Virus record (IMG/VR): IMGVR_UViG_3300025120_000474
Location: 1-26,043 of that record
Source: a virus
Strand: one strand, 5' to 3'
Length of the DNA stretch: 26,043 bases
Part shown: positions 5,527 to 25,185 of the stretch, piece by piece
Position numbering within the stretch: position 1 is the stretch's first letter
Layout of the letters: the number at the start of each line of letters is the position of its first letter
The notes under the pieces: generated by a model
What the model was told of the DNA's origin: nothing
Database searches by the model: none
The model's input: only the letters and a program-made list of their open reading frames with translations
Program-made: the position numbers and the translations under genes

Positions 5527-5928
5527 ATGGCTACTGTAAATAGAAAAATTAGAGAATTTTCAGATATTGATTTACTTTTTGGATTCGATAGTGTTACTAA
5601 TGACGTAAATAAAAAATTAAATGAAAATGCTATAAAACAATCTATAAAAAATTTAATTTTAACTAAAAATTATGAAAGATTATTTCATCCTGAAAATGGA
5701 TGTCAGATATCATCTTTATTATTTGAAAATATTGACCCAACAACAATTTCAATTATGGAACAAAGTGTGAGAACTGTTATTGATAATTTAGAACCTAGAG
5801 CACAGATAATTAATGTTATTATAAATGAAGCTATAGATTCAAATACTATAGATGTTACTGTAGAATTTATACCTAAAAATTCTGTCAAACCAGTTACTGT
5901 AATTACAACAATAGAGAGAGCAAGATAA
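5527..5928 (+). CDS. 25: Baseplate wedge subunit gp25
   Basis: A 133-residue member of the gpW/gp25 family, a small sheath-initiator and wedge protein that binds gp6 in the baseplate. The conserved EPR triad is at residues 89-91 (NLEPRAQI). The first part, with DIDLLFGF and a run of helix ending RLFHPENGCQ, also fits; this usually reads R...P..G. T4 gp25 has 132 residues, so the size is right. It follows the PAAR gene after seven bases, with AGGA at 5513-5516 as a possible ribosome site, and overlaps the gp6 start by one base (TAATG). Confidence 0.92.
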   Translation: MATVNRKIREFSDIDLLFGFDSVTNDVNKKLNENAIKQSIKNLILTKNYERLFHPENGCQISSLLFENIDPTTISIMEQSVRTVIDNLEPRAQIINVIINEAIDSNTIDVTVEFIPKNSVKPVTVITTIERAR

Positions 5929-7787
5929 TGACACAAATTAAATCTAATGAATTATCTCAATTAGATTTTGATCAAATTAAAAATAATTTAAAACAGTTTT
6001 TAAGTGATCAAACTACCTTTGCAGATTATGATTTTGAAGGGTCAGGTCTATCATTGCTATTAGATGTACTAGCTTATAATACACATTATAATGCTTATAT
6101 AGGAAATATGTTTGCTAATGAAATGTTTTTAGATTCTGCTGTAAAAAGATCTTCTGCTGTATCAATTGCAAAACAATTAGGGTTTACACCGGCTTCTATA
6201 AGAAGTGCTAGAGCTAATTTAAATTTAACCGTAAATGAAATAGCTGCTGGAACTACCTCTATTACATTAGATGCTAAAACTCCTTTTTCGACATCAATTG
6301 GTGGTAATGCATTTACGTTTTTTAATTTAGAATCCTCAACAATAAGATCGACAGCTGGCAAATTTACATTAGAAGGCCTTGAGGTTGTAGAAGGAACATT
6401 GAAAAATTTGAGTTTTGCGGTGGCTAATCCAGGTCCAGATGAAAAATATATAATACCAGATTTAGATATTGACACATCAACTCTGAAGGTAACTGTACAA
6501 GGATCTACTTCTAATGCATCATCTGATTCATATAATTTAACAACTGATACTACTAATGTGACATCAAGCTCAAGAGTGTTTTTTCTTGAAATGACTCCAG
6601 AAGAAAAATATGAAATATTTTTTGGTGATGGTTTATTAGGTAATAAATTAATTAGTGGAAATTTAGTAAACATTGAATATCTTAAATCTAGTGGTAGTTT
6701 AGCTAATAGTTCAGATAAGGCTGACATTAAATTTACTACTACGACTATAGGAGGTTCAAGCAATGTTAATCCAATAATAACTGATGACAATCCAAATTCA
6801 GGGGCTAGCGAAGATTCATTAACAAGTATTAAATTTAAAGCACCAAGAGCCAATGCTGCTAGGAACAGAGCCGTAACAGCTTCTGATTATAAATCACTTA
6901 TTGAATCTAATTTCACACAGGCAGAATCAATTATTGTTTATGGTGGAGAAGATAATGTACCTCCAAAGTTTGGTAAAGTAATTATTTCATTAAAACCATT
7001 TGACGGATTTATTATATCACAATCAACTAAAGATTCAATTGCAAGTTCAGTTTTAAATAGTAAAAAAGTTATGTCAGTACAACCCGAATTTATAGATCCT
7101 GAATTTAATTTTGTAAATTTAGTTGTTAATGTTAGTTTTAATTCATTATCTTCAACATTGAGTTCGGAAGAAATAAAAACTTTAGTTACTAATACAATTG
7201 ATAATTATTTTTCAAATGATCTTCAAAAATTTGATAAAAATTTTATAAAATCACAATTAATTAGTAACATTTTATCTGCTGATACTTCAATTGTTTCAGT
7301 TATAATTTTAGTAAATTTACAAAAAAGAAAATCTTTAAATTTGAGCTCTATTAATACATTTAATGGTGATGATTCAATCACTTTTAATAACAGTTTACAG
7401 CCTGGAACTGTAAAAACGAGTAGATTTTTTCAATTAGTTGATAATACAACAACATTAGTTAGCATGACTGATGTGCCAAGTAGTTCTCCAGCTGATTTAA
7501 GTGGATCTGGCACTATAGTAATAAAAAATATATCAAGTGATGCAATTGTTAATAGTAGTGCAGGTTCAGTAGATTATTTAACAGGTGAAGTAATTTTAAA
7601 TGAATTTACACCAACAGCATTGCCTAATAATTTAACAGACTTTAACATTACATCAGCTATACAAGAGTCCAGTCAGAATATTGTAGCAAATAGAAATAAC
7701 ATACTTATAAGAGATAAAAGTGCGTTAAATGCGGCTGCTGGCGTGGATGCGGGGTTAACTGTTAATGTAACAGCAATAGAACTATAA
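5928..7787 (+). CDS. 6: Baseplate wedge subunit gp6 (baseplate J-like)
   Basis: A 619-residue gp6 protein, which forms the inner ring of wedges and links the hub to the outer baseplate. The N-terminal region is the most diagnostic: FEGSGLSLLLDVLAYNTHYN, then ANEMFLDSA, then RSSAVSIAKQLGFTP, roughly residues 38-90. Later parts have the J-protein core with RNRAVTASDYKSLIE, where the typical family text is RAVT..DY, and GKVIISLKP. T4 gp6 has 660 residues. It starts in a TAATG overlap with gp25 and ends in one with the gp7-like gene, so 25, 6 and 7-like look translationally linked. A long reverse-strand open frame inside it (6095-6853) is a codon-use shadow. Confidence 0.92.
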   Translation: MTQIKSNELSQLDFDQIKNNLKQFLSDQTTFADYDFEGSGLSLLLDVLAYNTHYNAYIGNMFANEMFLDSAVKRSSAVSIAKQLGFTPASIRSARANLNLTVNEIAAGTTSITLDAKTPFSTSIGGNAFTFFNLESSTIRSTAGKFTLEGLEVVEGTLKNLSFAVANPGPDEKYIIPDLDIDTSTLKVTVQGSTSNASSDSYNLTTDTTNVTSSSRVFFLEMTPEEKYEIFFGDGLLGNKLISGNLVNIEYLKSSGSLANSSDKADIKFTTTTIGGSSNVNPIITDDNPNSGASEDSLTSIKFKAPRANAARNRAVTASDYKSLIESNFTQAESIIVYGGEDNVPPKFGKVIISLKPFDGFIISQSTKDSIASSVLNSKKVMSVQPEFIDPEFNFVNLVVNVSFNSLSSTLSSEEIKTLVTNTIDNYFSNDLQKFDKNFIKSQLISNILSADTSIVSVIILVNLQKRKSLNLSSINTFNGDDSITFNNSLQPGTVKTSRFFQLVDNTTTLVSMTDVPSSSPADLSGSGTIVIKNISSDAIVNSSAGSVDYLTGEVILNEFTPTALPNNLTDFNITSAIQESSQNIVANRNNILIRDKSALNAAAGVDAGLTVNVTAIEL

Positions 7788-11767: not shown

Positions 11768-14700
11768 ATGCCAACGACATTTAGTACTTCACCTCATTTT
11801 GACGATTATGATGAAACTAAGCAATTCGTAAGAGTTTTGTTTAGACCAGGTCGTGCAGTTCAAGCTAGAGAATTAACACAATTACAGACAATAATACAAG
11901 CGCAAATTGAAAGATTTGGTAAAGGAGTGTACAAGGATGGATCTTTTATATCTCCTCCTAAAACAACATATGATAATACATTTACATTTGTAAAACTTAC
12001 AGAATCTACGGGTGCAACTAATTCTGATGATGTAATATCTGGTTTAGTTGGATCTTCAATTACAAATGCTGATGGCGTTAGAGCTGTAATAATTAATCAC
12101 CAAACTTCAACTTCTGCGGGTGATCCACCTACATTGTATGTTAAGTACGAAGATGGAGGTGCAAATGAAGCCCTCGCTTTTAGTGATGGAGATACATTAA
12201 CTTCGGGCACTACAACATTGACAGCTGCGGCTTCATCAGCAACTGGAAGTGGAACTGCTTTTTCGATTGGTCAGTGTACTGTTTTTGCTAGGGGAAATTT
12301 TTTATTTGTGCCACAGCAAACACACATAGTTGAAAAATATGGTACTATAACAGATAAATTAATTGGATTTTCAATTACAGAATCAGTTGTGGATTCAGAT
12401 GATGATACATCATTACTTGATCCAGCAAGTGGAACATTTAACTTTTTTGCTCCAGGTGCAGATAGATATAAAGCTAATCTAACATTAACAAGTAGAGCTT
12501 TAAATTTTACAGATACATCTGATACTAATTTTATTGAAGTTATAAGAGTAGAAAATAGTGAGGTAATAAAAAAAGAAATTGATCCTAGATTTAGTGTATT
12601 AGGAGATACATTAGCTAGGAGAACATTTGATGAATCAGGCAATTATGAAGTAGATCCATTTACTGTAGAATTAAGAGAACATTTAAAAAATTTACCAACA
12701 GGAACTAATACTGCTGCAAATATTACTGCCACAGTAAATACAGGTATATTCCCGGCTGCAAACGGAGGCACTAATACAAAATTTGTTTCAGTAGTATCAC
12801 CTGGAAAAGCATATGTAAAAGGATATGAATTAGATGGTGTAAAAACAAGGTTTGTATCAATTGACAAAGCAAGAGATTTTTCAAATGTCACAAATGGTGT
12901 TGTTGCGAGTCAATTATCAAGTTTTGTTAAAATAGATAGCGTAAATTCATTACCTGATTTTGCAGTGGTAGAAACTCTTAATTTAAGAGACGAATATAAA
13001 AGTAGTAATGCTGGTCAAAATGGAACAATAGTAGGAACAGCAAGATCAAGAGGTTTGGTTTATCAAACTGGCAATGTTGCAACTAGTAGAGGAGGAGGTG
13101 CTCACAGAACTGCAGAATTTAAATTGCATTTATTTAATATCAATATGGAAGATGGAAAGACATTTGATACAAATGTAAAACAAATTGAATGTAATGATTT
13201 TGAATTTGCAGCCAATGTTGTTCCAACTTTAACTAATTTAACAGGTGCAGTTACTTTTAATGATGCATCTACAACAGTGAGAGGAAGTGGAACAAGATTT
13301 ACAACAGATTTAAAAGTTGGTGATGTAATTAGCGTATCTAACACATTAACTACAGATAAATTAGTTGTTAGTACAATTACAGATGATGTGACATTAACAG
13401 TCTCTTCAGCGGCTTCAATAAATTTACAACTAGCGGCCGAAGTCACATATGTTACACCTCAACTTAATACAGCAAACATAGGTGATTCTGATAAAGATAT
13501 CTTAATTTCACAATTTCCATTTGATGTTATTAAAGCAGTTGATCCAGATAATGATGATACTACTTATACAGTAAAAAGACAAGAAACGAGAACATTATCT
13601 AGTGGAGCTGTTACTATAACTGCTGGTACTAATGAAACTTTTGCACCATTTTCAACAGACAATTACTTGGCTGTTATAGTGAATGGAGCTAGAAAAGGTG
13701 AATACATAAGCATACAAAGTGGTGATATATCATTTAATGGAGGATTTACAGAAGTTACATTTGATTTTTCTTCGTCAGAAAGTTTAAGTGGAGAGGCATT
13801 AGAATTTATTTTAACTGTCAATAAAATAACTTCTGCTGCTTTAAGAAAAACTAAAACATTAAATCAAAATCAAACTATAACTATTAATACTCAAAAAGAA
13901 GCACAAGCTGCTATTATTTCGCTTGGAAAAGCTGATGTTGTTAAATTATCTAATGTTTTAATGTCAAATGTTGATTTTGACGCGTCATATACTGATTCTG
14001 GTGCTGTTCCTATTACAGATAGATATACATTAGATACAGGTCAAAAATCTACATTTTATGATTTATCTAAATTAAAATTAAATCCAGGTGCAGCTCTACC
14101 AGAACATCCTATAAAAATAACTTTTGACTTTTTTTCACATGGTACTGGAGACTTCTTCAGTGTAGGTTCATATCCAGATTATGAAGATATACCAACAGTT
14201 GAATTTGCTGGTAAACAACTTCAGTTGAGAAATTGTTTAGATTTTAGACCTAGAATAAATGATGCTGGTACTGGTTTTTCTGGCACTGGCGCATCAACAA
14301 CCGAATTCCTAGACCCAGAAATAAACTTTAAAACTTTTTATCAATTCTTTTTACCAAAAATAAATTCAATAGGTATTAATGAAAATGGAAATTATTTTTT
14401 AGTTAATGGTAAAAGTGAATTAACCCCAAGAGAACCTACCTTTCCAGCTGATCTTCTTAAATTATTTGTATTACAACAAAAACCTTATGTATTTGATTTA
14501 AATAAAGATATAGAAGTAAAAAAAGTTGAAAATAAAAGATTTACCATGAAAGATATTGGTAAAATAGAAAATAGAGTAAAAACTTTAGAATTTTATACAA
14601 GTTTAAATTTACTAGAAAGAGATGCTCAACAAACTCAAATACAAGATGAGTTAGGGTTTGAAAGGTTTAAAAATGGTTTTGTTGTTGATTCGTTCACAGG

Positions 14701-16165
14701 TCATGGTGTTGGTGATTCATTAGATAATCCCGACTACGCCGTGTCAGTGAATTTTACAAAAAAAGAAGCAAGTCCTCTTATTAAGAGTCAATTTCTTAAT
14801 ATGAGTGAAGTATCAACTACTACTGATCAAAGAGCTTCAAATAATTATGTAATTACTGGAAGTGTTGTTTCTTTGCCTTATCAACATGAAATATTAGCAC
14901 AAAATCCATTTTCAAGTAAAACACAAAATTTAAATCCATTTAATATAGGTGTATTTCAAGGAGTTATGAAATTATCTCCTCCTGGAGATCTTTGGTTTGA
15001 TGATAGAAGAGTGCCAGATGTGCAAGTGGATAGAACAGGTACGTTTGATTCATTGACTTCACAATCTTTGATCAAAAGAGATGGTAGAAATGTGTTTGGC
15101 TCATTAAATGACATTGAGCAATTGAGAAATGGTATACCTCAAAACACAGATGAATTGCCAGAAAATTTAAAAGGTTTATCTGATCTTTTAGGTTCAGTTT
15201 CACCTGCAACATCTTCTTTACAATTACAAGGTAATGAAGTTGTTAAAAATATAATTGTAGTTCCTAAAATGAGAGATGCAGCTATAAATGTAAAAGTTGA
15301 TGGAATGAGAGCTCGCACAAGAGTGTTTGCATTTTTTGATAATCAACCTATTGGTGCTTTATGTGGTCTTGTAACGGCAGAAATAAAAACTATACAAAAT
15401 AATTTGAAGGCAAATATTGCAGCTGGAGTAAGTGAAGTATTTATAACAAAAGATAGAAATGATTTATTTGCCGCCCAGTCAACTGTTTCAACAAAATTAA
15501 AAACTGATAGTGCTGGTTCTATAGAATTAAATTTTCGATATTCGTCAGACACTTTGAACTTAGACACGGGCAAAAAATTACTTAGACTTACGAGTTCTTC
15601 AAAAAATGATGTAGAAACTGAAGTTACTTTTGCAGAACAATTATTTGTAAGTGATGGTGTTATAAGAGAAGTTTCAAAAGAAGTTTTGAGACCTCCTGAT
15701 CCTCCACCCGAGCCAGAAACTACTACAACTGCTGATCAAATCAATGTTGAGAAACAAGAGGATGCTGTTGTAAGTGATGATGATGTTGAGCAGCCTCAAG
15801 AGACTGAAGAAGCAGTGGTGGATGATTCTGAGGGAGGAGATAATGTACCAGTGACTTTATTAGACTTTGTTTACGTTGATTTCAGAGGTCCTGGAAAATT
15901 TCCAAACGCAAAGGAAATAGCTTATTGGAATAATGAATTTCCAGGTGTAGGTACTACAGCAAAAACAGCTGCTGCTACTATTCCTAACTTACCACAATTT
16001 TTCACATCCATAAGTAATGGATTTTTAACAAATGGAGGAAAAGGTGAAGAAACAGAGGGTGGCTGGGCTGACGCTATAGGGAGAGAAATTGATGCGGGGA
16101 ACAGAACTATGGAAATAGAAACATCAAATTATGTAACTTATGCAACTGGGACATACACACCTTAG
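11768..16165 (+). CDS. Large DUF4815-type virion structural protein
   Basis: A 1465-residue protein, the largest in the window. Its N-terminus (FDDYDETKQFVRVLFRPGRA, then VQARELTQLQTIIQ, then QIERFGKGVYKDGSF) is the DUF4815 signature common in marine T4-like phages, where such proteins sit at the baseplate or fibre base. Around residues 487-560 there is a beta module (GSGTRF, KVGDVISVSN, TITDDVTLTV) often seen in fibre proteins. The region around residues 930-970 is helical and charged (MKDIGKIENRVKTLEF). A Pro/Glu/Asp-rich linker begins at about residue 1309 and runs to about 1360. The last 100 residues form a separate domain (FVYVDFRGPGKFPN, KEIAYWNNEFPG). That piece vaguely recalls DUF4214-type repeats in other phage proteins, a weak resemblance. 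It is followed after eight bases by its likely partner. Confidence 0.78.
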   Translation: MPTTFSTSPHFDDYDETKQFVRVLFRPGRAVQARELTQLQTIIQAQIERFGKGVYKDGSFISPPKTTYDNTFTFVKLTESTGATNSDDVISGLVGSSITNADGVRAVIINHQTSTSAGDPPTLYVKYEDGGANEALAFSDGDTLTSGTTTLTAAASSATGSGTAFSIGQCTVFARGNFLFVPQQTHIVEKYGTITDKLIGFSITESVVDSDDDTSLLDPASGTFNFFAPGADRYKANLTLTSRALNFTDTSDTNFIEVIRVENSEVIKKEIDPRFSVLGDTLARRTFDESGNYEVDPFTVELREHLKNLPTGTNTAANITATVNTGIFPAANGGTNTKFVSVVSPGKAYVKGYELDGVKTRFVSIDKARDFSNVTNGVVASQLSSFVKIDSVNSLPDFAVVETLNLRDEYKSSNAGQNGTIVGTARSRGLVYQTGNVATSRGGGAHRTAEFKLHLFNINMEDGKTFDTNVKQIECNDFEFAANVVPTLTNLTGAVTFNDASTTVRGSGTRFTTDLKVGDVISVSNTLTTDKLVVSTITDDVTLTVSSAASINLQLAAEVTYVTPQLNTANIGDSDKDILISQFPFDVIKAVDPDNDDTTYTVKRQETRTLSSGAVTITAGTNETFAPFSTDNYLAVIVNGARKGEYISIQSGDISFNGGFTEVTFDFSSSESLSGEALEFILTVNKITSAALRKTKTLNQNQTITINTQKEAQAAIISLGKADVVKLSNVLMSNVDFDASYTDSGAVPITDRYTLDTGQKSTFYDLSKLKLNPGAALPEHPIKITFDFFSHGTGDFFSVGSYPDYEDIPTVEFAGKQLQLRNCLDFRPRINDAGTGFSGTGASTTEFLDPEINFKTFYQFFLPKINSIGINENGNYFLVNGKSELTPREPTFPADLLKLFVLQQKPYVFDLNKDIEVKKVENKRFTMKDIGKIENRVKTLEFYTSLNLLERDAQQTQIQDELGFERFKNGFVVDSFTGHGVGDSLDNPDYAVSVNFTKKEASPLIKSQFLNMSEVSTTTDQRASNNYVITGSVVSLPYQHEILAQNPFSSKTQNLNPFNIGVFQGVMKLSPPGDLWFDDRRVPDVQVDRTGTFDSLTSQSLIKRDGRNVFGSLNDIEQLRNGIPQNTDELPENLKGLSDLLGSVSPATSSLQLQGNEVVKNIIVVPKMRDAAINVKVDGMRARTRVFAFFDNQPIGALCGLVTAEIKTIQNNLKANIAAGVSEVFITKDRNDLFAAQSTVSTKLKTDSAGSIELNFRYSSDTLNLDTGKKLLRLTSSSKNDVETEVTFAEQLFVSDGVIREVSKEVLRPPDPPPEPETTTTADQINVEKQEDAVVSDDDVEQPQETEEAVVDDSEGGDNVPVTLLDFVYVDFRGPGKFPNAKEIAYWNNEFPGVGTTAKTAAATIPNLPQFFTSISNGFLTNGGKGEETEGGWADAIGREIDAGNRTMEIETSNYVTYATGTYTP

Positions 16166-16173
16166 GAAAATAA

Positions 16174-18084
16174 ATGATATTAAATAGATTAGATCCAGTC
16201 GCACAAACTTTTGTAGTTGAAGAGCCTACTTATATTACTAAGGTTGATTTGTTTTTTTCTTCAAAAGATGCAAATATTCCTGTATTCTTACAAATTAGAA
16301 AGATAGTTAATAATAGGCCTAGTCAAGAAGTACTACCATTTAGTTCAACAGTAATTCCTGCGACAAGTGTTAACACATCAGAGACTGCTGATTTAGCAAC
16401 TACAGTAACTTTTGAGTCACCAATATTTGTAGATACTGGGGAGTATGCTTTAACTGTAGGGTCAGATTCTAAATCATACAATGCTTATGTGTCAGAACTA
16501 GATGGCACAGACACAAAAACTGGTAGAAGAATATCAGAACAGCCTTTAGTTGGTTCATTATTTTTGTCAGAAAATTTAAAATTATATCAACCTGATTTAT
16601 TTGAAGATTTAAAAGTAAATATTTACAGAGCCAAATTTTATACAAATGTAACTTCAACTGTTAACTTAGAATTAGTTGGATCGCCAGGAAGTTTTACTAG
16701 TATAATAGATGCATTAGTAACTGACCCATTAGAAGTTTATCCAGGTTTTAAAACTATGAAAGTTTATCATTTTAATCATGGTTTTGCTGATTCTTCCTTT
16801 ATAAATTTAAAAAATGTATCTAATATTAATGGTGTTGCTGCCAATGTACAAACAGGAGTAGATCCTACCGCATTTACAGTTAGTAATGTTGTTGGAATGC
16901 CAGGCGATCAAATACAAAATGTTGACTTTGAAATTTCTAATGTAACATTAAATTCATATACAGTCAATTTACCTCATATAGCAAATGTAGTATCAAGAAC
17001 AAGATTTGGTGGTGGATCTGTTAGAGTAGAAGAAAACACAGCTTTTTCATCTATTACACCTCAAAATTCTATTTTTAAACCAGCTGGCACAACTGTGACA
17101 AGTAAAGCACTAACAACAACTCTTGGTAGTTCTTATACTAGGGGCACAGAATTTATTGAAATACAAAATGCTGTACAAAATGATTTTGATTCAGAAAAAG
17201 TATTAGCTAGTAATTTAAACAAAGTAAAAAAAGCTTCAGATAAAAAAACATTTGAATATAGAATAGATATGTCTTCAAATAATGATAGAGTATCACCTGT
17301 CATTGATATAGAACAACTTGGCGCAAATTTTAAACGTAATTTGGTTAATAATCCATCTTATGCTAGTTTAAAAGCACATGAATTAAATTTATTATCTAAT
17401 ATAGGTGACGGTAATCTAGGTGTAGGTCATAAAGCAAACATTTATGTTACTTCAGGTAACTTTGGAATTATTAATTTAGCAAATGTGAATGATATGAATA
17501 ATGCCAATAGTATAATAAATGGTTCTATTTTAAATGTTAATGCTAATACATCACAAACAACAGGATCTGGAGCTAACAATACTGGTTTATATAGAGTAAT
17601 AGATGTGGTTACAGGAAATAGTGATAATGTAAACATAAAGGTAGCCAAGATTACAGGCAATATAGACCAAGATATTGCTAACAATAATGTTTATCATATA
17701 GTAAGCACAAATGATTTTATTACTGAAGAAGCTCCTGTGGGCGGATCAGCATTTTCTAAATATATTTCAAGACAAGTAGATTTTTTTAATCCATCTACTG
17801 GAATTAAATTTTTCTTTGATGTATCTAAACCAGCTGAATCAACAATTGAAATATACTTTAAAACCAAGCTAGCTGGTGATAGCACAAACATGAATAGTAT
17901 AGAATATCAAAAAGTTTCTGATGTAACTATAACTAATTCTTTAGGTGGTGAGTTTATTCAGTTTGAAAAAGAAGTTACTAATATTAGTGAATTTAATTCG
18001 TTAGTATTTAAAATTGTTTTAAATTCATCAGATAGTAATAAAATTCCTAAAATTAAAAATTTAAGAGCGATAGCAACAGGATGA
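16174..18084 (+). CDS. Virion structural protein with N-terminal DPVAQTF motif
   Basis: A 636-residue structural protein. The N-terminus reads RLDPVAQTF, then ITKVDLFFSSKDANIPVFLQ, then NRPSQEVLPFS. A further region has YNAYVSELDGTD, RRISEQPLVGSLFLSEN, and FEDLKVNIYRAKF. I recall this combination as the C-terminal part of large marine phage structural proteins that begin with DUF4815. Here it is its own gene. AGGA at 16164-16167 lies upstream, and an in-frame TAA at 16171-16173 directly precedes the ATG, so it is not simply a frameshifted tail of the previous gene. It probably works with the 1465-residue protein in the baseplate periphery. The stop overlaps the next start (ATGA at 18081-18084). 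Confidence 0.72.
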   Translation: MILNRLDPVAQTFVVEEPTYITKVDLFFSSKDANIPVFLQIRKIVNNRPSQEVLPFSSTVIPATSVNTSETADLATTVTFESPIFVDTGEYALTVGSDSKSYNAYVSELDGTDTKTGRRISEQPLVGSLFLSENLKLYQPDLFEDLKVNIYRAKFYTNVTSTVNLELVGSPGSFTSIIDALVTDPLEVYPGFKTMKVYHFNHGFADSSFINLKNVSNINGVAANVQTGVDPTAFTVSNVVGMPGDQIQNVDFEISNVTLNSYTVNLPHIANVVSRTRFGGGSVRVEENTAFSSITPQNSIFKPAGTTVTSKALTTTLGSSYTRGTEFIEIQNAVQNDFDSEKVLASNLNKVKKASDKKTFEYRIDMSSNNDRVSPVIDIEQLGANFKRNLVNNPSYASLKAHELNLLSNIGDGNLGVGHKANIYVTSGNFGIINLANVNDMNNANSIINGSILNVNANTSQTTGSGANNTGLYRVIDVVTGNSDNVNIKVAKITGNIDQDIANNNVYHIVSTNDFITEEAPVGGSAFSKYISRQVDFFNPSTGIKFFFDVSKPAESTIEIYFKTKLAGDSTNMNSIEYQKVSDVTITNSLGGEFIQFEKEVTNISEFNSLVFKIVLNSSDSNKIPKIKNLRAIATG

Positions 18085-18284
18085 TAAAAGTAAAAAATTA
18101 TCCTAATTTAGTTAGAGATCCAAAATCTAAAGCAATTGTAAATATAAATTCATCAGCTTATAAAGAGCATTTACAAAAAAATTTAGTTAAACAAAACATA
18201 TCACGCATGGATAATGAAATAAATACTATTAAACAATCTGTAAATGATATAAAAGAATTACTAATTAAGATGGTAGAAAAATAA
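18081..18284 (+). CDS. Small coiled-coil protein, unknown function
   Basis: A 67-residue protein. Its first half reads YPNLVRDPKSKAIVN, then SSAYKEHLQK. This resembles a small conserved gene of marine T4-like phages found beside structural genes; I cannot name the family. Residues about 40-66 (ISRMDNEINTIKQSVNDI and on) have hydrophobic residues at heptad spacing, so a short coiled coil is likely. It overlaps the preceding gene by four bases and the next by one, so it is part of the same translation chain. A role in assembly or trimer formation is possible but not shown. Confidence 0.6.
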   Translation: MIKVKNYPNLVRDPKSKAIVNINSSAYKEHLQKNLVKQNISRMDNEINTIKQSVNDIKELLIKMVEK

Positions 18285-18478
18285 TGACATATGCAAATAT
18301 TACTTTAAGAACAACTGGAACTTTATTACCTGACGCTATTACAAATGGTGTTATTGTAAAAAATGCAGCTTTAACAAATCAACAAGTAGATAACAATTTT
18401 GCTAACCTTAGTATAGAAATAAGCAATACTGCTAACACTGCTTCAACAGTAATACCATTTGCAATAGCGCTTGGTTAA
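18284..18478 (+). CDS. Short tail-fibre-motif peptide (cassette copy 1)
   Basis: A 64-residue protein. Its centre has NGVIVKNAALTNQQVDNNFA, matching the K...LTN.E.D.NF.NL motif that usually stands near the N-terminus of long phage tail fibres. Here it is alone. It ends in a hydrophobic tail with Gly last (PFAIALG), like the ending of the 49-residue gene at 18874. It starts in a TAATG overlap. It is probably a small fibre-base or virion-bound peptide; that is inferred from the motif only. Confidence 0.5.
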   Translation: MTYANITLRTTGTLLPDAITNGVIVKNAALTNQQVDNNFANLSIEISNTANTASTVIPFAIALG

Positions 18479-18490
18479 TTAAGGAATAAC

Positions 18491-18865
18491 ATGGCAAACA
18501 ATTTTAAAAATAAACTAACAGCTAATGTAAGTTTTGCAAATTCTTCAGTTGCTGCATTACCCACTTTTGCAAATGTTGGTAATTATTCAGTTCCCACTGG
18601 ATGTGTAGCTACAGTTATAGGTTTATCTTTAGCTAACAGAAATACTCTAAATGCGGCTTGTGTTGATGTGCAACTCAATACAGCAACTGGCCCTAGTGGA
18701 AACATAACATTAGTACAAGCAGCTCCAGTTCCAATTGGTGGTTCGTTAGTTGCTGTTGGAGGAGATCAAAAAGTTGTATTAGAAGTTAATCAATCAATAC
18801 AAGTGAGAGCTACTGCTGGCAATGTAGATGTTATTATGTCAATTTTAGAATCAGATCAAACATAG
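18491..18865 (+). CDS. Small beta-rich virion protein (cassette copy 1)
   Basis: A 124-residue beta-rich protein preceded by AAGGAA at 18481-18486. It contains YSVPTGCVATVIGLSLANRN, then VDVQLNTA, then APVPIGGSLVAVGGDQKVVL, NQSIQVRA, and VIMSILESD. These parts fit a jelly-roll-like or Ig-like small phage structural protein, as seen in many marine phages near fibre genes. I do not know its formal family name. It shares an outline with the 123-residue protein at 19037: a strand ending in N, a V.V.L strand, VPVxxSLV, ENQSI or VNQSI, and a final S.E. They are probably distant paralogues. It may decorate the tail or fibre base. Confidence 0.55.
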   Translation: MANNFKNKLTANVSFANSSVAALPTFANVGNYSVPTGCVATVIGLSLANRNTLNAACVDVQLNTATGPSGNITLVQAAPVPIGGSLVAVGGDQKVVLEVNQSIQVRATAGNVDVIMSILESDQT

Positions 18866-18873
18866 GGTAAGAT

Positions 18874-19023
18874 ATGGCATTAACTAAATTAAGAGGTAAT
18901 ATAATTTCAACTGGTACTGTTTCTAATGCTAAAATTGAAGAGGCTAGCATTACAAATGATAAATTGAAAATACAACCAGCATCAACAGGAAAAGCCATAG
19001 CTATGTCAATAGTTTTTGGTTAA
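18874..19023 (+). CDS. 49-residue tail-fibre-motif peptide (cassette copy 2)
   Basis: A very short gene: ATG at 18874, TAA at 19021-19023, 49 residues. AGGG lies at 18864-18867, overlapping the previous stop. The peptide begins MALTKLRGNIISTGTVSNAK and continues IEEASITNDKL. The text S.AKI..ASITNDKL is the kind of repeat found in the shafts or N-termini of long phage fibres. It ends GKAIAMSIVFG, a hydrophobic end with Gly last, comparable to the end of the 64-residue gene at 18284. The start, ribosome site and exact fit between neighbours support a real gene. Its function is not known. Confidence 0.6.
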   Translation: MALTKLRGNIISTGTVSNAKIEEASITNDKLKIQPASTGKAIAMSIVFG

Positions 19024-19036
19024 AAGGAAAATATAA

Positions 19037-19408
19037 ATGGCAAATCCAAATATTGTAGGCGTTACCACTATACTGGGAGAGACGACTTCTGTAGCAGCTG
19101 CTGTTGCTGATAGAGCTATAGCTAATAATCCAATAACCAGTGGTAATGTTTTTAAAATAAACACTATTATAGCTACTAATAATAACACCACAGCAGCTGC
19201 TGTCGTTCACGTAAATCTTTATCCTGAAGATGATTTAGGTGGCGTATCAAATGCGATAGCTCATGCAATAAGTGTTCCAGTAAATTCAAGTTTAGTTATT
19301 ATAGACAAGTCCACAAGTTTTTACTTAAAAGAAAATCAATCTATAGGAGGAAATGCTACTACTACAAGTAGCATAGTATTCACTACAAGTTTTGAAATAA
19401 TAAAATAG
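19037..19408 (+). CDS. Small beta-rich virion protein (cassette copy 2)
   Basis: A 123-residue protein starting MANPNIVGVTTILGETTSVA, preceded by AAAAGGAAA at about 19022-19030. The rest is beta-type: VFKINTIIATNNN, VVHVNLYPEDD, AISVPVNSSLVIID, then LKENQSIGGNA and FTTSFEII. The layout parallels the 124-residue protein at 18491, although identity is low, so a common fold is likely. It lies directly before the glycine-rich adhesin genes and may be a collar or connector at the fibre base; that is inferred. Overlapping reverse-strand open frames are shadows. Confidence 0.55.
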   Translation: MANPNIVGVTTILGETTSVAAAVADRAIANNPITSGNVFKINTIIATNNNTTAAAVVHVNLYPEDDLGGVSNAIAHAISVPVNSSLVIIDKSTSFYLKENQSIGGNATTTSSIVFTTSFEIIK

Positions 19409-19416
19409 GCTAACTA

Positions 19417-21375
19417 ATGGCTAGCTTTAAAGGTGGTTTAATAAGATCTACACCAATAACTAATTCACGACTTGGTCAAAATAGTGGTATCTTTGGTATG
19501 AGCAGAGTTGCTCAGCTAATAGGTAGTGTTGAATGGCCTACAAATTTTTTTGAAGTAAAAACATTCAATAGCACTCAAACTTGGACGTGTCCAACAGGTG
19601 TATCATCAATAGAATACTTAGTGATATCTGGAGGTGGTGGTGCTGGATCAAATGGTGGTGGAGGCGGTGGAGGTGGTGGTTATAAAATAGGCGTAGCTGC
19701 TGTTGCTGCTCCTAACTCATATACAATGACCATTGGTGGTGGTGGTCTTGGTGGTACTTCCCCTGATGCAGAAAAAGGTAGCAATGGTACTATTTCTTCT
19801 ATAGCTGGTCCTGGTCTTTCGACTATTGACGCTTCAGCTGGCGGTGGTGGTGCTAATTATCAGGGTAATGGTTATGCAGGTGCTTCAGGTGGAGGAGCTG
19901 GTGGTAATCCTGCACCAAATCCAGGTGCAGGACTTGGATATGGTCTTACAAATTTAGTTGGAGGAGCAGGTAATACTCAAACACCAACAACACCAGCTAC
20001 TGGAAATCTTTCACCCGATCAAGGAAATGATGGTGGAAAAGGTTCATCAGACAATAGCGCTTGGACTGTAGGAGGTGGTGGAGGTGGCGGAGGTGCTCCT
20101 GGTACAAATGCAATAGCAAATACTCCACATTATTTTCCTAACTCACAGTTAAGACAAGCTGGTAATGGTGGTGCTGGAGTTGCATCTACAATATCTGGTT
20201 CCACATTATTTTATGGTGGTGGAGGTGGCGGAGGTGGCTCGTCTAATGGACCAACTGTAGAGGGAGCTGGTGGTACTGGAGGAGGCGGTGATGGTGGAGT
20301 TACAAATCCTTTGGCTGCTCGTACTAATGGATTTAATGGAACTTTTGCTACTGGAGGGGGTGGTGGTGGAGGAGTTAATGCTGCTCTTTTAGCTGGAGGA
20401 ACAGGTGGTTCTGGTACAGTAATAATAAAATATAATATTAATATTAATAATGCAACATCAGATAGTGAAAAACTACTAACTTTTAATGGTTCAGGAGTTT
20501 GGCAAAATAATACTGGTGCTAAAGAAATTTCTTATTTAGTTGTAGGAGGTGGAGGGGCTGGAAGTCGAGCTCATAGTGTTGCTGGTTCTGGAGGAGGAGC
20601 CGGTGGATTACTAACAGGAACAGGATTAGCAGTAGTACCAGGAGCATCCTACAATATAATAGTGGGTGCTGGTGGTTCTGCAATGCCTGCAGTTCCCGTA
20701 GCAATTTCAACTTCATTAATTACAGCACAAATTGGTAGCAATTCAAGTATAATAGGCAGTGGTGTAAATAAAGAAGGTTTAGGTGGAGGTGGTGGTGGAC
20801 ATGGAGGTCAAGGAGGAGGATCTGGCCCTGGATTTCAAGGTGGAATTTTTGAAGGCCAAGGACTTCCTGGTGGAAGTGGAGGAGGAGGAGCAGCAACTAG
20901 ATCTATATTTGGTGGACTTACATTACAATCGAGTGCTCCAGATGGTTTTGGAAATAATGGTGGTGTTTCATCGCCTGGAGAAACAACAGGAACTGAATCA
21001 GCAGACCCAGATAGACATGGTGGTGGAGGAGGAGGTGCAACTGCAATAGGTGGAACTGGATCAAAAACTCCTATAACGCTTGCAGGTCCTGGCGGAGCTG
21101 GAAAAGCAAGTCCTATAACTGGCACTCCAGTAACTTATGCTGGAGGGGGAGGTGGTGGATCTGGTTCTCCTGGTGGAGCAAGTGTGGGAGCTGGAGGAGC
21201 AGGTGGAGGTGGAGCAGGTGGTAGAGGAAATGATCCAAATAATGCTATTCCTGGTACAGCTGGTACAGATAATACTGGTGGCGGTGGCGGTGGAGGTGGA
21301 TATGGTGGTTTGCCTAGTAGTGTAGCAGGTGGAGCAGGTGGTTCTGGTGTTGTAATAATAAAGATTACAGGATAA
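19417..21375 (+). CDS. Glycine-rich tail adhesin-like protein 1
   Basis: A 652-residue protein with long Gly runs, probably a receptor-binding fibre or adhesin on the tail. Residues 1-45 are non-repetitive. Then TWTCPTGVSSIEYLVISGGG opens the first glycine-rich unit, which ends GGSGTVIIKYNI near residue 345. A second unit starts at about 350 (GVWQNNTGAKEISYLVVGGG) and ends SGVVIIKITG at the stop. Inside each are strings such as STLFYGGGGG or GTPVTYAGGGG. Gly-rich segments of this kind can pack as polyglycine type II helices, as in the gp38 adhesins of some T-even phages. That structural link is an analogy, not shown here. The next gene is a paralogue. Pro-rich reverse-strand frames are shadows of GGN codons. 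Confidence 0.72.
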   Translation: MASFKGGLIRSTPITNSRLGQNSGIFGMSRVAQLIGSVEWPTNFFEVKTFNSTQTWTCPTGVSSIEYLVISGGGGAGSNGGGGGGGGGYKIGVAAVAAPNSYTMTIGGGGLGGTSPDAEKGSNGTISSIAGPGLSTIDASAGGGGANYQGNGYAGASGGGAGGNPAPNPGAGLGYGLTNLVGGAGNTQTPTTPATGNLSPDQGNDGGKGSSDNSAWTVGGGGGGGGAPGTNAIANTPHYFPNSQLRQAGNGGAGVASTISGSTLFYGGGGGGGGSSNGPTVEGAGGTGGGGDGGVTNPLAARTNGFNGTFATGGGGGGGVNAALLAGGTGGSGTVIIKYNININNATSDSEKLLTFNGSGVWQNNTGAKEISYLVVGGGGAGSRAHSVAGSGGGAGGLLTGTGLAVVPGASYNIIVGAGGSAMPAVPVAISTSLITAQIGSNSSIIGSGVNKEGLGGGGGGHGGQGGGSGPGFQGGIFEGQGLPGGSGGGGAATRSIFGGLTLQSSAPDGFGNNGGVSSPGETTGTESADPDRHGGGGGGATAIGGTGSKTPITLAGPGGAGKASPITGTPVTYAGGGGGGSGSPGGASVGAGGAGGGGAGGRGNDPNNAIPGTAGTDNTGGGGGGGGYGGLPSSVAGGAGGSGVVIIKITG

Positions 21376-21378
21376 AAA

Positions 21379-23793
21379 ATGGCTAAAAAAGTAGGTGGAA
21401 TCATATCATCAAACGAATTTACTCTAAGTCGTTTTGGCAATAGTGGTATGTTTACATTAGGACAACATATTAATGCTGTATCATTAGGTTCATGGGGTGG
21501 TAATTATGATTATGTGAAAGAATTTACTGGTTCTGGTAGTTGGACTTGTCCAGATGGAGTAACAGAAATAGAAGAATATGTAGTAATAGCTGGAGGTGGA
21601 GGTGGAGGCCATTCTTCTGGAGGTGGTGGAGGAGGTGGTGGAATGAGATTTGGCACAGGTTTGTCAGTTGTATCTGGTAAAAATTATCCTTTGAATATTG
21701 GAAGTGGAGGTCCAGGTTTTGAAGCTCCAGGAAATGGTAGAGCTTCTAACGGAGTCTCATCAGCTTTCAAAACTGAAGCTAATGTTTTGTATTATGTAGC
21801 TGTAGGAGCAGCTGATCCTGCACCAGGCAATAGATATTATGTAAAATCAACAAATGAATTTGAAGGTGTAACTGCTAATGTAGAAGCAGAAACTTTAAAA
21901 TTATATGAAGGATCAACATACAGATTTGATCAATCACATCCATCAAATAGTGGACACCCTTTTAGATTTTCTTCAACTGTAGTTTCACCAGCATCATCAG
22001 CTACTCCTTATACAACTGGGTTAACAACTAATCAACCTAGTACAGGTGCAGGATCTCCAGGTTCTAGAGTTCAATTACAAGTAGCAACACCTGCGCCTCA
22101 ACTTTATTACTACTGTACAAGCCATCCAGTAAGTGGATCAGCAAGTATGGGTGGTGCTGCCGATACTCTTGCAAATATTTCAATAGTATCTCTTGGTGGT
22201 GGTGGAGGTGGTGGTGGAGAAAATTCAGGAGATTATACTACTGGTCATAAAGGTGGTTCTGGAGGAGGTAGTGGAAATGGTACAAGACCAGCTGCTGGTG
22301 CTGCAACTCCAGTAACTCAAATTTCTGGTGAAAATACTGATAGAGGTTCTGGTGTACAAGGTTTTGGTGGTGGAGGGGGAGCTAACTACACAGCTGCTGG
22401 TCCACATCCTGCTGGAGGAGGCGGTGGTGGTGGAGCTTCAGCACCAGGTACACAGGCTTCAGCTGCTCCAGTTTTAGATGGTGGAGATGGAGGAGATGGA
22501 CAAGCAGTAACTATTTCAGGCACACCCGTAACTTATGCTGGAGGAGGTGGAGGAGGTACTGCAAGTTTTGGCGTTCTACCACCTGGTACGATTGATTATT
22601 CAAGTATAGGTTTAGGAGGTCTAGGAGGTGGAGGAAATGGAGGATCGGGATTTTCAATAGGTTTAACAGGTACAACTAACACTGGTGGTGGAGGTGGTGG
22701 CGGTGGTATACAAAATGCTCCTAGTGTTGATATTAAGGATGGAAAAAATGGTGGTTCAGGTATTATATTAATAAAATACAAAAATAATTCTGATAATAAA
22801 ATATTTACATTTAATGCATCAACAACATTTTTAAATAATATAGGTGCTAAAACAGCTGATTATTTAATAGTTGCTGGAGGAGGAGGTGGTGGTTTTGGAG
22901 GTGGGGGTGAAGGTGGAGGAGGGGCTGGTGGAATGAGACAAGGATCTGGATTGCCTCTTTTTGAAAATGAAGAAATAAGAATTCAAGTTGGAAGTGGTGG
23001 AACTGCAGCGGGTCCTACTAATTCTGGTGCAGAAAATACAAAAGGTAATGATTCATCTTTATCTACTAGCGCTATACATATTGGATCAAATGGAGGTGGT
23101 AGAGCTTCAACATCCTTTCCACAAAACCGCTTAGATACTATTGGTGGCTCTGGTGGTGGAGGAAATTATGGTGCATCAGGAAATGTTGCTATTTCATTAG
23201 ACAATACTACATTTTATACAGGAAGTGGAAATGTAAGGAATTCAATTGCTACAAGTGGATTTGGCATTACTGAAGCTGATCCTTTTCCAGTGCAAGGTCA
23301 TGCTGGTGGTTCAGCAACAGGTACTGGTACTGGTACTGGTGTTAGGAGAGGCGGTGGAGGCGGTGGTGCTGGAACAGTTGGTCAAAATGGCGCTGATGTT
23401 GCACTTAGTAGAGGAGGCAATGGAGGTAATGCAGTTGCCTCAACAATAACAGGTTCTACCGTATATTATGCTGGAGGTGGAGGAGGAACTATGGGTGAAT
23501 CACATGGTTCTGTAGGTATTGTTTCATTAGGTGGAGGAACAGGAGGTCCAATATCTGGTGCTGGAGCAGGATCTGAAAACAGTCCTGTATATGCCAATAA
23601 AGGTGGTGGAGGTGATGGATACGATAACAAAGGTCCTTCTCCATTTACACCTGCTCCCACAAATGATGGTGGAACAAACACTGGTGGAGGTGGTGGAGCT
23701 GCAACTAACACAACATTTAGAGGAACTAATCCAAATGGGATTGTAAGTGGTCAAGGTGGATCAGGAATTGTTGTCTTAAAGATTACAGGGTAG
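21379..23793 (+). CDS. Glycine-rich tail adhesin-like protein 2 with cupredoxin-like insert
   Basis: An 804-residue paralogue of the preceding protein: SWTCPDGVTEIEEYVVIAGG opens the first glycine-rich unit, which ends SGIILIKYKN near residue 470, and a second unit runs to SGIVVLKITG at the stop. Between about residues 135 and 265 an extra domain interrupts the first unit. It has LYEGSTYRFDQSHPSNSGHP, a FRFS strand, and LYYYCTSHPVSGSASMGG. This resembles the cupredoxin-like module of marine phage virion proteins. Its possible metal residues are H193, C246, H249 and M257. The gene starts three bases after the previous stop with AGGA upstream. Host-binding is the likely role. Whether metal is bound is unknown; the Cys-His-Met spacing is longer than in plastocyanin. 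Confidence 0.72.
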   Translation: MAKKVGGIISSNEFTLSRFGNSGMFTLGQHINAVSLGSWGGNYDYVKEFTGSGSWTCPDGVTEIEEYVVIAGGGGGGHSSGGGGGGGGMRFGTGLSVVSGKNYPLNIGSGGPGFEAPGNGRASNGVSSAFKTEANVLYYVAVGAADPAPGNRYYVKSTNEFEGVTANVEAETLKLYEGSTYRFDQSHPSNSGHPFRFSSTVVSPASSATPYTTGLTTNQPSTGAGSPGSRVQLQVATPAPQLYYYCTSHPVSGSASMGGAADTLANISIVSLGGGGGGGGENSGDYTTGHKGGSGGGSGNGTRPAAGAATPVTQISGENTDRGSGVQGFGGGGGANYTAAGPHPAGGGGGGGASAPGTQASAAPVLDGGDGGDGQAVTISGTPVTYAGGGGGGTASFGVLPPGTIDYSSIGLGGLGGGGNGGSGFSIGLTGTTNTGGGGGGGGIQNAPSVDIKDGKNGGSGIILIKYKNNSDNKIFTFNASTTFLNNIGAKTADYLIVAGGGGGGFGGGGEGGGGAGGMRQGSGLPLFENEEIRIQVGSGGTAAGPTNSGAENTKGNDSSLSTSAIHIGSNGGGRASTSFPQNRLDTIGGSGGGGNYGASGNVAISLDNTTFYTGSGNVRNSIATSGFGITEADPFPVQGHAGGSATGTGTGTGVRRGGGGGGAGTVGQNGADVALSRGGNGGNAVASTITGSTVYYAGGGGGTMGESHGSVGIVSLGGGTGGPISGAGAGSENSPVYANKGGGGDGYDNKGPSPFTPAPTNDGGTNTGGGGGAATNTTFRGTNPNGIVSGQGGSGIVVLKITG
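23320..23340 (+). repeat. Short GGTACT tandem repeat inside adhesin 2
   Basis: Three exact copies of GGTACT plus a partial fourth, coding for a Gly-Thr run. The unit is six bases, so gain or loss of copies would keep the reading frame and change only the length of a flexible loop. Confidence 0.7.
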
Positions 23794-24603: not shown

Positions 24604-25185
24604 ATGGAAAAAGATTTAACAAAGTATGTTGCTAATTATGAAAATTTTTTAGATGAAAATTATTGCAAAAAAGCAGTAAAAGCTCTAAAAAAAGCAGAGT
24701 GGTCAATTCATCAATTCTATCAAGCAGGTTCAGGTGATCATATTAGTTATGATAATGAACTATCTGTATCTTGGTCAAACATAAAACAAAGACAAGAAAT
24801 TCAAGAAAAATTACACAGTGGTCTAACGAGATATCTTAATGAACTTCCTGATGTTTCTAAAGCAAAAACGCATGATTGGTTTTGTGGTTGGAATGGATAC
24901 ACTCAATTAAGATTTAACAAATATGATGAATCCACACAAATGAAACTCCATTGTGATCATATACATTCTATGTTTGATGGTAATAGAAAAGGAATTCCAA
25001 CATTATCACTTCTTGGTTGTTTAAATGATGATTATGAAGGAGGAGAACTAATAATGTGGGAAGACCAAGAAATTGAATTAAAAAGAGGGTCACTGTTGAT
25101 CTTTCCTAGCAATTTCATGTATCCTCATGAAGTAAAACCTGTAACAAAAGGTTCTCGTTATTCTTATGTATCTTGGGCTTGGTAA
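24604..25185 (+). CDS. 2-oxoglutarate/Fe(II) oxygenase, prolyl-4-hydroxylase-like
   Basis: A 193-residue enzyme of the 2-oxoglutarate/Fe(II) dioxygenase superfamily. The iron ligands are H116 and D118 (LHCDHIH) and H175 (YPHEVKPV), and R185 (KGSRYSYVSW) should bind 2-oxoglutarate. GGELIMW near 147-152 and GSLLIFPS near 162-169 are the usual core strands. Such enzymes hydroxylate protein side chains or small molecules using oxygen; the substrate cannot be told from sequence. Marine T4-like phages often carry them near structural genes, so a virion protein, perhaps an adhesin, is a possible target. The next two genes follow closely, and the last is another oxygenase of a different family. Confidence 0.85.
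   Translation: MEKDLTKYVANYENFLDENYCKKAVKALKKAEWSIHQFYQAGSGDHISYDNELSVSWSNIKQRQEIQEKLHSGLTRYLNELPDVSKAKTHDWFCGWNGYTQLRFNKYDESTQMKLHCDHIHSMFDGNRKGIPTLSLLGCLNDDYEGGELIMWEDQEIELKRGSLLIFPSNFMYPHEVKPVTKGSRYSYVSWAW

Follow-up and report, generated by a model that had tools for sequence, protein, structure and literature searches.

What would four very small genes, in which two short peptides alternate with two β-rich proteins, contribute to the tail-fibre region of a T4-like phage contig? The genes lie in a virus record of 26,043 bases, analysed over its whole length and referred to here as the window. A T4-like baseplate operon encoding wedge subunits, a hub/lysozyme and PAAR proteins is located 5′ of them, and the gene order runs from the baseplate genes through a 1465-residue and a 636-residue protein of the phrog_358 type and a 67-residue protein to the four small genes and two adhesins. 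The 67-residue protein (18081–18284, plus strand) belongs to the virion structural family phrog_473 (E 4e-16) and is kept in the related loci L088–L091. The 1465- and 636-residue proteins (11768–18084) match successive parts of phrog_358, so that the window may encode in two parts what is one protein elsewhere.

The four small genes and their products

The four small ORFs all start with ATG on the plus strand and are separated by gaps of 8–13 nt. The first (18284–18478) encodes a short stalk of 64 residues, designated stalk I, with a fibre-type N-terminal part followed by the C-terminal sequence IPFAIALG (tag I, 18452–18475). It is followed by partner I, or beta I, of 124 residues (18491–18865), by the 49-residue stalk II (18874–19023), which ends in GKAIAMSIVFG (tag II, 18988–19020), and by partner II, or beta II, of 123 residues (19037–19408). 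The motifs LTNQQVDNNF and AKIEEASITNDKL are present in the short peptides, the ends of which, AIALG and AIAMSIVFG, had been noted as alike in a preliminary description of the region; they prove to be C-terminal tags that are specific to the partner family. The 64- and 49-residue peptides give no local alignment with each other and have only this C-terminal pattern in common. Downstream are two glycine-rich adhesins of 652 residues (19417–21375) and 804 residues (21379–23793), both on the plus strand, which match PF21722 (Gly_rich_2) with 97.9 and 60.1 bits, respectively, against a cut-off of 24.3. Scans of the four small genes against PHROGs and Pfam gave no match to a gp34–gp38 family, a result compatible with a distant relation.

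The alternating genes are real. The ORFs lie where the preliminary description had placed them, and the four frames recur in the same order and with nearly equal lengths in three relatives of the window (L088, L089 and L090). The dN/dS ratios for the four genes, calculated among the window, L088 and L090, are 0.13–0.60, with dS saturated in one comparison. These values indicate that the short frames are real proteins, and by this measure the four genes are under purifying selection in close relatives; the lack of protein-level conservation that the preliminary description had considered is not what is found.

The two partners have a common outline, VP[IV]xxSLV, NQSI and a serine/glutamate end (SILE in beta I and SFE in beta II). 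As the preliminary description suggested, this outline reflects homology: BLASTP aligns the two proteins over 35 residues with E 4e-4, and profile-profile comparison with hhalign gives E 7.8e-7 and a probability of 92% (E 1.3e-6 and 90.5% with larger alignments of the two families). In addition, 123 ORFs are matched at E ≤ 1 by both family profiles. Judged from these alignments, beta I and beta II are distant homologues.

AlphaFold2 predicts an eight-stranded jelly roll for beta I of the window, with a mean pLDDT of 71.7 for the whole chain and 58–93 in blocks of the partner domain. The prediction for beta II was made on a relative from locus L051, and it is a similar jelly roll with 91–96 in blocks covering most of the partner domain. 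The expectation of similar folds for the 124- and 123-residue proteins is therefore borne out at the level of prediction. The PDB neighbours of the two models are largely the same. The KHP40 trimeric cement protein superimposes on the beta I model with Z 9.3 (rmsd 3.9, 110 residues aligned) and on the beta II model with Z 9.6 (rmsd 3.0, 106 aligned), and the other matches are nucleoplasmin-like proteins, Ena appendage pilins and the HFTV1 turret, although all these Z-scores exceed only moderately those of common folds. C1q heads rank lower; the values for 2jg8, Z 7.0 (rmsd 2.9, 103 aligned) and Z 7.3 (rmsd 3.0, 97 aligned), are below those of the nucleoplasmin-like and cement proteins and, being under 8, may reflect only a common arrangement of strands.

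Neither partner has a sequence relative in the PDB at E ≤ 1, and searches there with pieces of the stalks gave, apart from chance matches, only a match of repeats to known fibre shafts. The window partners have no match in Pfam and the members of the beta I family no significant one, which leaves room for a distant relation to chaperones. Beta I matches phrog_26609, weakly, and phrog_1276; the first is unannotated and both are without an assigned function. Five partners elsewhere (L279, L243, L170, L334 and L418) have insertions inside the jelly roll, in open stretches of 181–254 residues.

Pairing of tags and partners

In the first named relatives, an AIALG-like end was found 5′ of beta I and a GKAIAM.IVFG-like end 5′ of beta II; the consensus ends are ...AIALG for tag I and ...GK[AS]IAM.I[VI]FG for tag II. 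Scans of IMG/VR identified 492 encoded relatives of beta I and at least 527 of beta II, and the best 80 of each were analysed. For beta I, an upstream ORF is available in 79 loci and ends in AIALG in 79 of 79, the last locus being cut by the end of the contig. For beta II, tag II is directly upstream in 72 of the 80. In four more the partner is separated from the tagged fibre by one inserted gene, which encodes an endonuclease, and another three (L030, L037 and L065) are truncated at the end of the contig. The inserted gene is located exactly between the tagged stalk and the partner in each of the four, and encodes Endonuclease VII in L031 (3827–4342) and L043 (4495–4998) and an HNH_3 protein, with an AP2 match, in L074 (2547–3050) and L083 (4483–4989). 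A different arrangement is seen in L081 (4088–5378), where three short stalk genes of 91, 94 and 98 residues stand in a row before one beta II; two of the stalks have tags of the GK-IAF type, and a variant end adjoins the partner. The background is low: among 7,282 ORFs of at least 40 residues that lie outside the 100 nt upstream of any partner, six have a tag, namely the four stalks separated by endonuclease genes and two whose partners are cut by the contig end.

The pairing is also evident in the reverse direction. IMG/VR was searched at the DNA level for the tags alone, with degenerate patterns for ALAIALG-stop and GK[AS]IAM[AS]IVFG-stop, each of which gave at least 120 stretches. Among the 120 matches listed for tag I, 107 are followed by beta I, eight are at a contig end and five lack a partner. 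For tag II, 119 of 120 stretches were examined, L058 being left out because it was already in the set, and among these 116 are followed by beta II and three are at a contig end. The five tag I matches without a partner comprise a nine-codon frame (L177), a protein that resembles a membrane protein (L252) and three fibre-like proteins with a tag I end (L179, L199 and L210); a profile search of the last three records, which are partly fragments, found no partner match, in a search run with no positive control.

Many of these loci are near copies of one another, a redundancy that is addressed by counting distinct stalk/partner pairs. In all loci there are 344 such pairs; 325 have the tag of their own class, three have the contrary one and 16 have neither, as judged by the tag patterns used. 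The three contrary cases are divergent beta I proteins preceded by FG-type ends (in S-SRM01, in PhiW-14 and the second one in L132). Among the 16 tagless pairs are the four with an inserted endonuclease gene, L081, edge cases, variant ends (L198), tandem beta II genes (L358), two beta I proteins after an untagged ORF (L255 and L227) and β-like proteins elsewhere in the locus (L247, L253, L257, L352 and L366). In L358 (minus strand, offsets 5596–6874), a single tag II stalk precedes a tandem of two beta II genes. The β-like proteins of the other five loci have 109–113 residues and no tagged neighbour, and their different gene contexts possibly represent another use of the fold. Overall, the pairing of tag and partner is near-obligate in hundreds of viral contigs.

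The same architecture is present in the 20 named isolates that were inspected, four of which have variant ends. They are the pelagiphages HTVC019P, HTVC026P, HTVC033P, HTVC104P and HTVC203P; HMO-2011; the roseophages CRP-13 and CRP-143; the cyanophages S-TIM5, S-SRM01, Bellamy, S-SKS1 and SynMITS9220M01; Melnitz; the Rhizobium phages Y65 and I1_18; Ochrobactrum phage vB_OspM_OC; Delftia phage PhiW-14; Yersinia ruckeri phage YerA41; and DSL-LC04. The variant ends are PIMMGMIF in S-SKS1, GLVIALGG in SynMITS9220M01, ALIWAIVMG in PhiW-14 and ALIYSIVFG in S-SRM01, and the final glycine of the tag is absent in HMO-2011, HTVC104P and HTVC203P. A single scan of species genomes of bacteria and archaea yielded only one locus, in a metagenome-assembled genome.

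Exchange of stalks and adhesins around the pair

The tag follows the partner much more closely than does the rest of the stalk. In a FastTree phylogeny of 225 partners, tag class changes four times, as compared with 67 in the lowest of 30 shuffles, whereas stalk family changes 66 times, with a lowest shuffle of 90. Stalk families were defined here by the N-terminal part (13 families with three or more members, 166 rows), since single-linkage clustering of whole stalk bodies gave one large cluster. Both tag classes are present in 10 stalk families. A smaller first set, which left out six beta II loci with no direct tag, had 124 distinct pairs in 24 N-terminal families, four with both classes, and every pair matched. 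The sub-ends of tag II change 14 times against 34 changes of stalk family on comparable rows, which indicates a looser tie of the finer ends to the partner phylogeny.

When two loci have partners that are 60–80% identical, their stalk bodies are unrelated (alignment cover under 30%) in 72% of cases for beta I and 76% for beta II, and their downstream proteins in 55% and 84%, respectively. The stalks found with partners range from 49 to 794 residues, and some contain collagen-like Gly-x-y repeats (L113 and L017). The tag/partner unit is thus conserved between stalks and adhesins that are exchanged.

Among the downstream proteins, the N-terminal motif GG.IS...GVW.L...WP was detected by profile in 27 of 69 distinct proteins after beta II and in 0 of 40 after beta I; with ORFs open at contig ends left out, the count after beta II is 18 of 74. 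A single universal N-terminal motif for all proteins that follow beta II was rejected, as only the 27 of 69 match. Both window adhesins carry the motif (E about 1e-13), and the two (19417–23793) may be alternative or tandem adhesins. Where the two kinds of partner are adjacent, beta I precedes beta II in five of five loci (L084, L088–L090 and L198) and in the window, L088–L090 being close relatives of the window and the second stalk of L198 having a variant end.

These results bear on the proposal that a fibre base had been taken apart and then duplicated. A recent tandem duplication was rejected because the two stalks have no similarity and each pair belongs to a separate large family, mostly occurring singly. 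The idea of a dismantled base fares no better, because no partner is fused to a stalk in 2,553 open stretches of 180 residues or more and the stalks vary so widely in length. The window pairs are most likely, as far as sequence comparison can tell, two ancient matched modules on very short stalks.

A putative joint and its alternatives

The reading that we favour, and consider rather probable, is that each pair works as a plug and socket, with a docking tag on the stalk and a matched jelly-roll partner as the joint. The short protein would be a fibre segment, or stalk, and its last 8–13 residues, in which small hydrophobic residues alternate with bulky ones, would serve as a fixed docking tag. 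The small jelly roll encoded by the next gene would bind this tag, beta I taking tag I and beta II taking tag II. The alternation of small and bulky residues would suit a tag that is added to the jelly roll as a β-strand. The jelly roll would then receive the next fibre segment or adhesin, and the window order, 64-residue stalk, beta I, 49-residue stalk, beta II and glycine-rich adhesin, would describe a minimal segmented fibre. We infer the physical binding, the oligomeric state and the joint role, and also that position in the fibre follows gene order. That tag and partner bind is quite likely; that the partner acts as a joint between the stalk and the next segment has roughly even chances. 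Of the exchangeable connectors suggested previously, the part that fits best is connectors for the downstream adhesins, whereas exchangeability is doubtful, as each class appears to be matched to a tag of its own. The AlphaFold2 monomer models, in which tag and partner were predicted as one read-through chain, gave the jelly-roll folds but did not dock the tag in either case; it is a coil in one model and a low-confidence helix in the other.

Since tag and partner are neighbouring DNA, linked inheritance could give some of the matching, and in the extreme the two would travel together without any interaction, their genes being adjacent and open to transfer in one recombination event. We regard this extreme as very improbable, because the tag is kept while the rest of its stalk gene is replaced, and because the pairing outlasts the insertion of an Endonuclease VII or HNH gene between the two. 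An unlikely, though more serious, alternative is that the partner is an assembly chaperone of the Tfa type, a transient cap that covers the C terminus of the fibre during folding and then leaves. A chaperone would fit the small gene after a fibre gene, the pairing of one stalk with one partner and the conserved target at the C terminus, and there is a precedent in the transient chaperone caps proposed for Alteromonas phages A5 and V22 in an excerpt of PMC10579305. Against it, the predicted compact jelly roll has among its best matches structural proteins (the KHP40 cement protein, the HFTV1 turret and the Ena pilins), although nucleoplasmin-like histone chaperones score as high; a tail fibre assembly gene is annotated in YerA41 in addition to the partner, and the partner is labelled virion structural in the annotation of many records. 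Our search found no proteome that shows the partners in virions. Somewhat less likely still is a terminal receptor-binding tip resembling a C1q head but encoded by its own gene, with the downstream adhesins as independent fibres. The C1q heads among the fold matches (2jg8), the collagen-like repeats of some tagged stalks and the inserted stretches in some partners are consistent with a tip, but the partner is much more conserved than its neighbours, which is unusual for a receptor-binding tip, and both window stalks are so short that two tips would sit near the tail. The joint is preferred to both the tip and the chaperone because partner and tag are constant while the neighbours on both sides change.

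Fibre segments, tips and chaperones that have genes of their own are known from systems of the T4 and Tfa types, and the long tail fibre of T4-type phages (gp34 to gp38) consists of separately encoded segments joined end to end. The arrangement proposed here would resemble that fibre in its segments, in the small C-terminal protein and in the glycine-rich adhesins of some relatives, but its partners match no annotated family, and we know of no other case in which many unrelated fibres share a short tag at the C terminus that is matched to a jelly-roll partner. C1q/TNF-type trimeric heads sit on collagen-like or other fibres in a stalk-plus-head arrangement, and their jelly-roll fold is moderately matched by the predicted partners (Z about 7); unlike them, the partner is encoded apart from the stalk at all loci examined. 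Fibre cap chaperones, Tfa and those in the excerpt on V22 and A5 (PMC10579305), are dedicated partners that act at the end of a fibre, as the present partners may, and in both systems modules are common to distant phages, but the target here seems to be a short tag that unrelated stalks have in common, with a predicted small jelly roll as the partner. The Bacillus endospore appendage pilins and ExsF (7a02, 8pdz and 9h3d), as described in their PDB entries, are also small jelly rolls of fibres, and ExsF was solved with a bound anchor peptide, N-terminal according to the entry title; the present system is a phage system, and no sequence relation to them was found. A virion protein of similar size after the short tail fibre, S-CREM2 gp127, was considered from an excerpt of PMC10665884 and is not a partner. 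The passages on the tail fibre and structural proteins in the Melnitz paper (PMC9004378) do not mention the pair, and no description of a tag/partner system was found in open-licence papers; the system is apparently undescribed.

A broader form of the plug-and-socket reading, to which we give slightly less than even chances, is a two-channel coupling of fibres that is common to marine and other phages, with both channels in series in the window. At the same tentative level, a tag with its matched jelly-roll joint would be a standard connector by which unrelated stalks and adhesins are combined. If the tag is a connector, it would explain how fibre parts are exchanged between unrelated phages without failure of assembly, a matter of host-range evolution. 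For hundreds of unannotated viral contigs, the tag also provides a sequence handle that marks the C terminus of fibre proteins and their partner, and tag and partner are candidates for matched peptide/protein couplers. A gene for a 2OG-Fe(II) oxygenase (phrog_61; 24604–25185) lies 3′ of the adhesins in the window, and similarly named genes are found near the partner genes of Bellamy and DSL-LC04.
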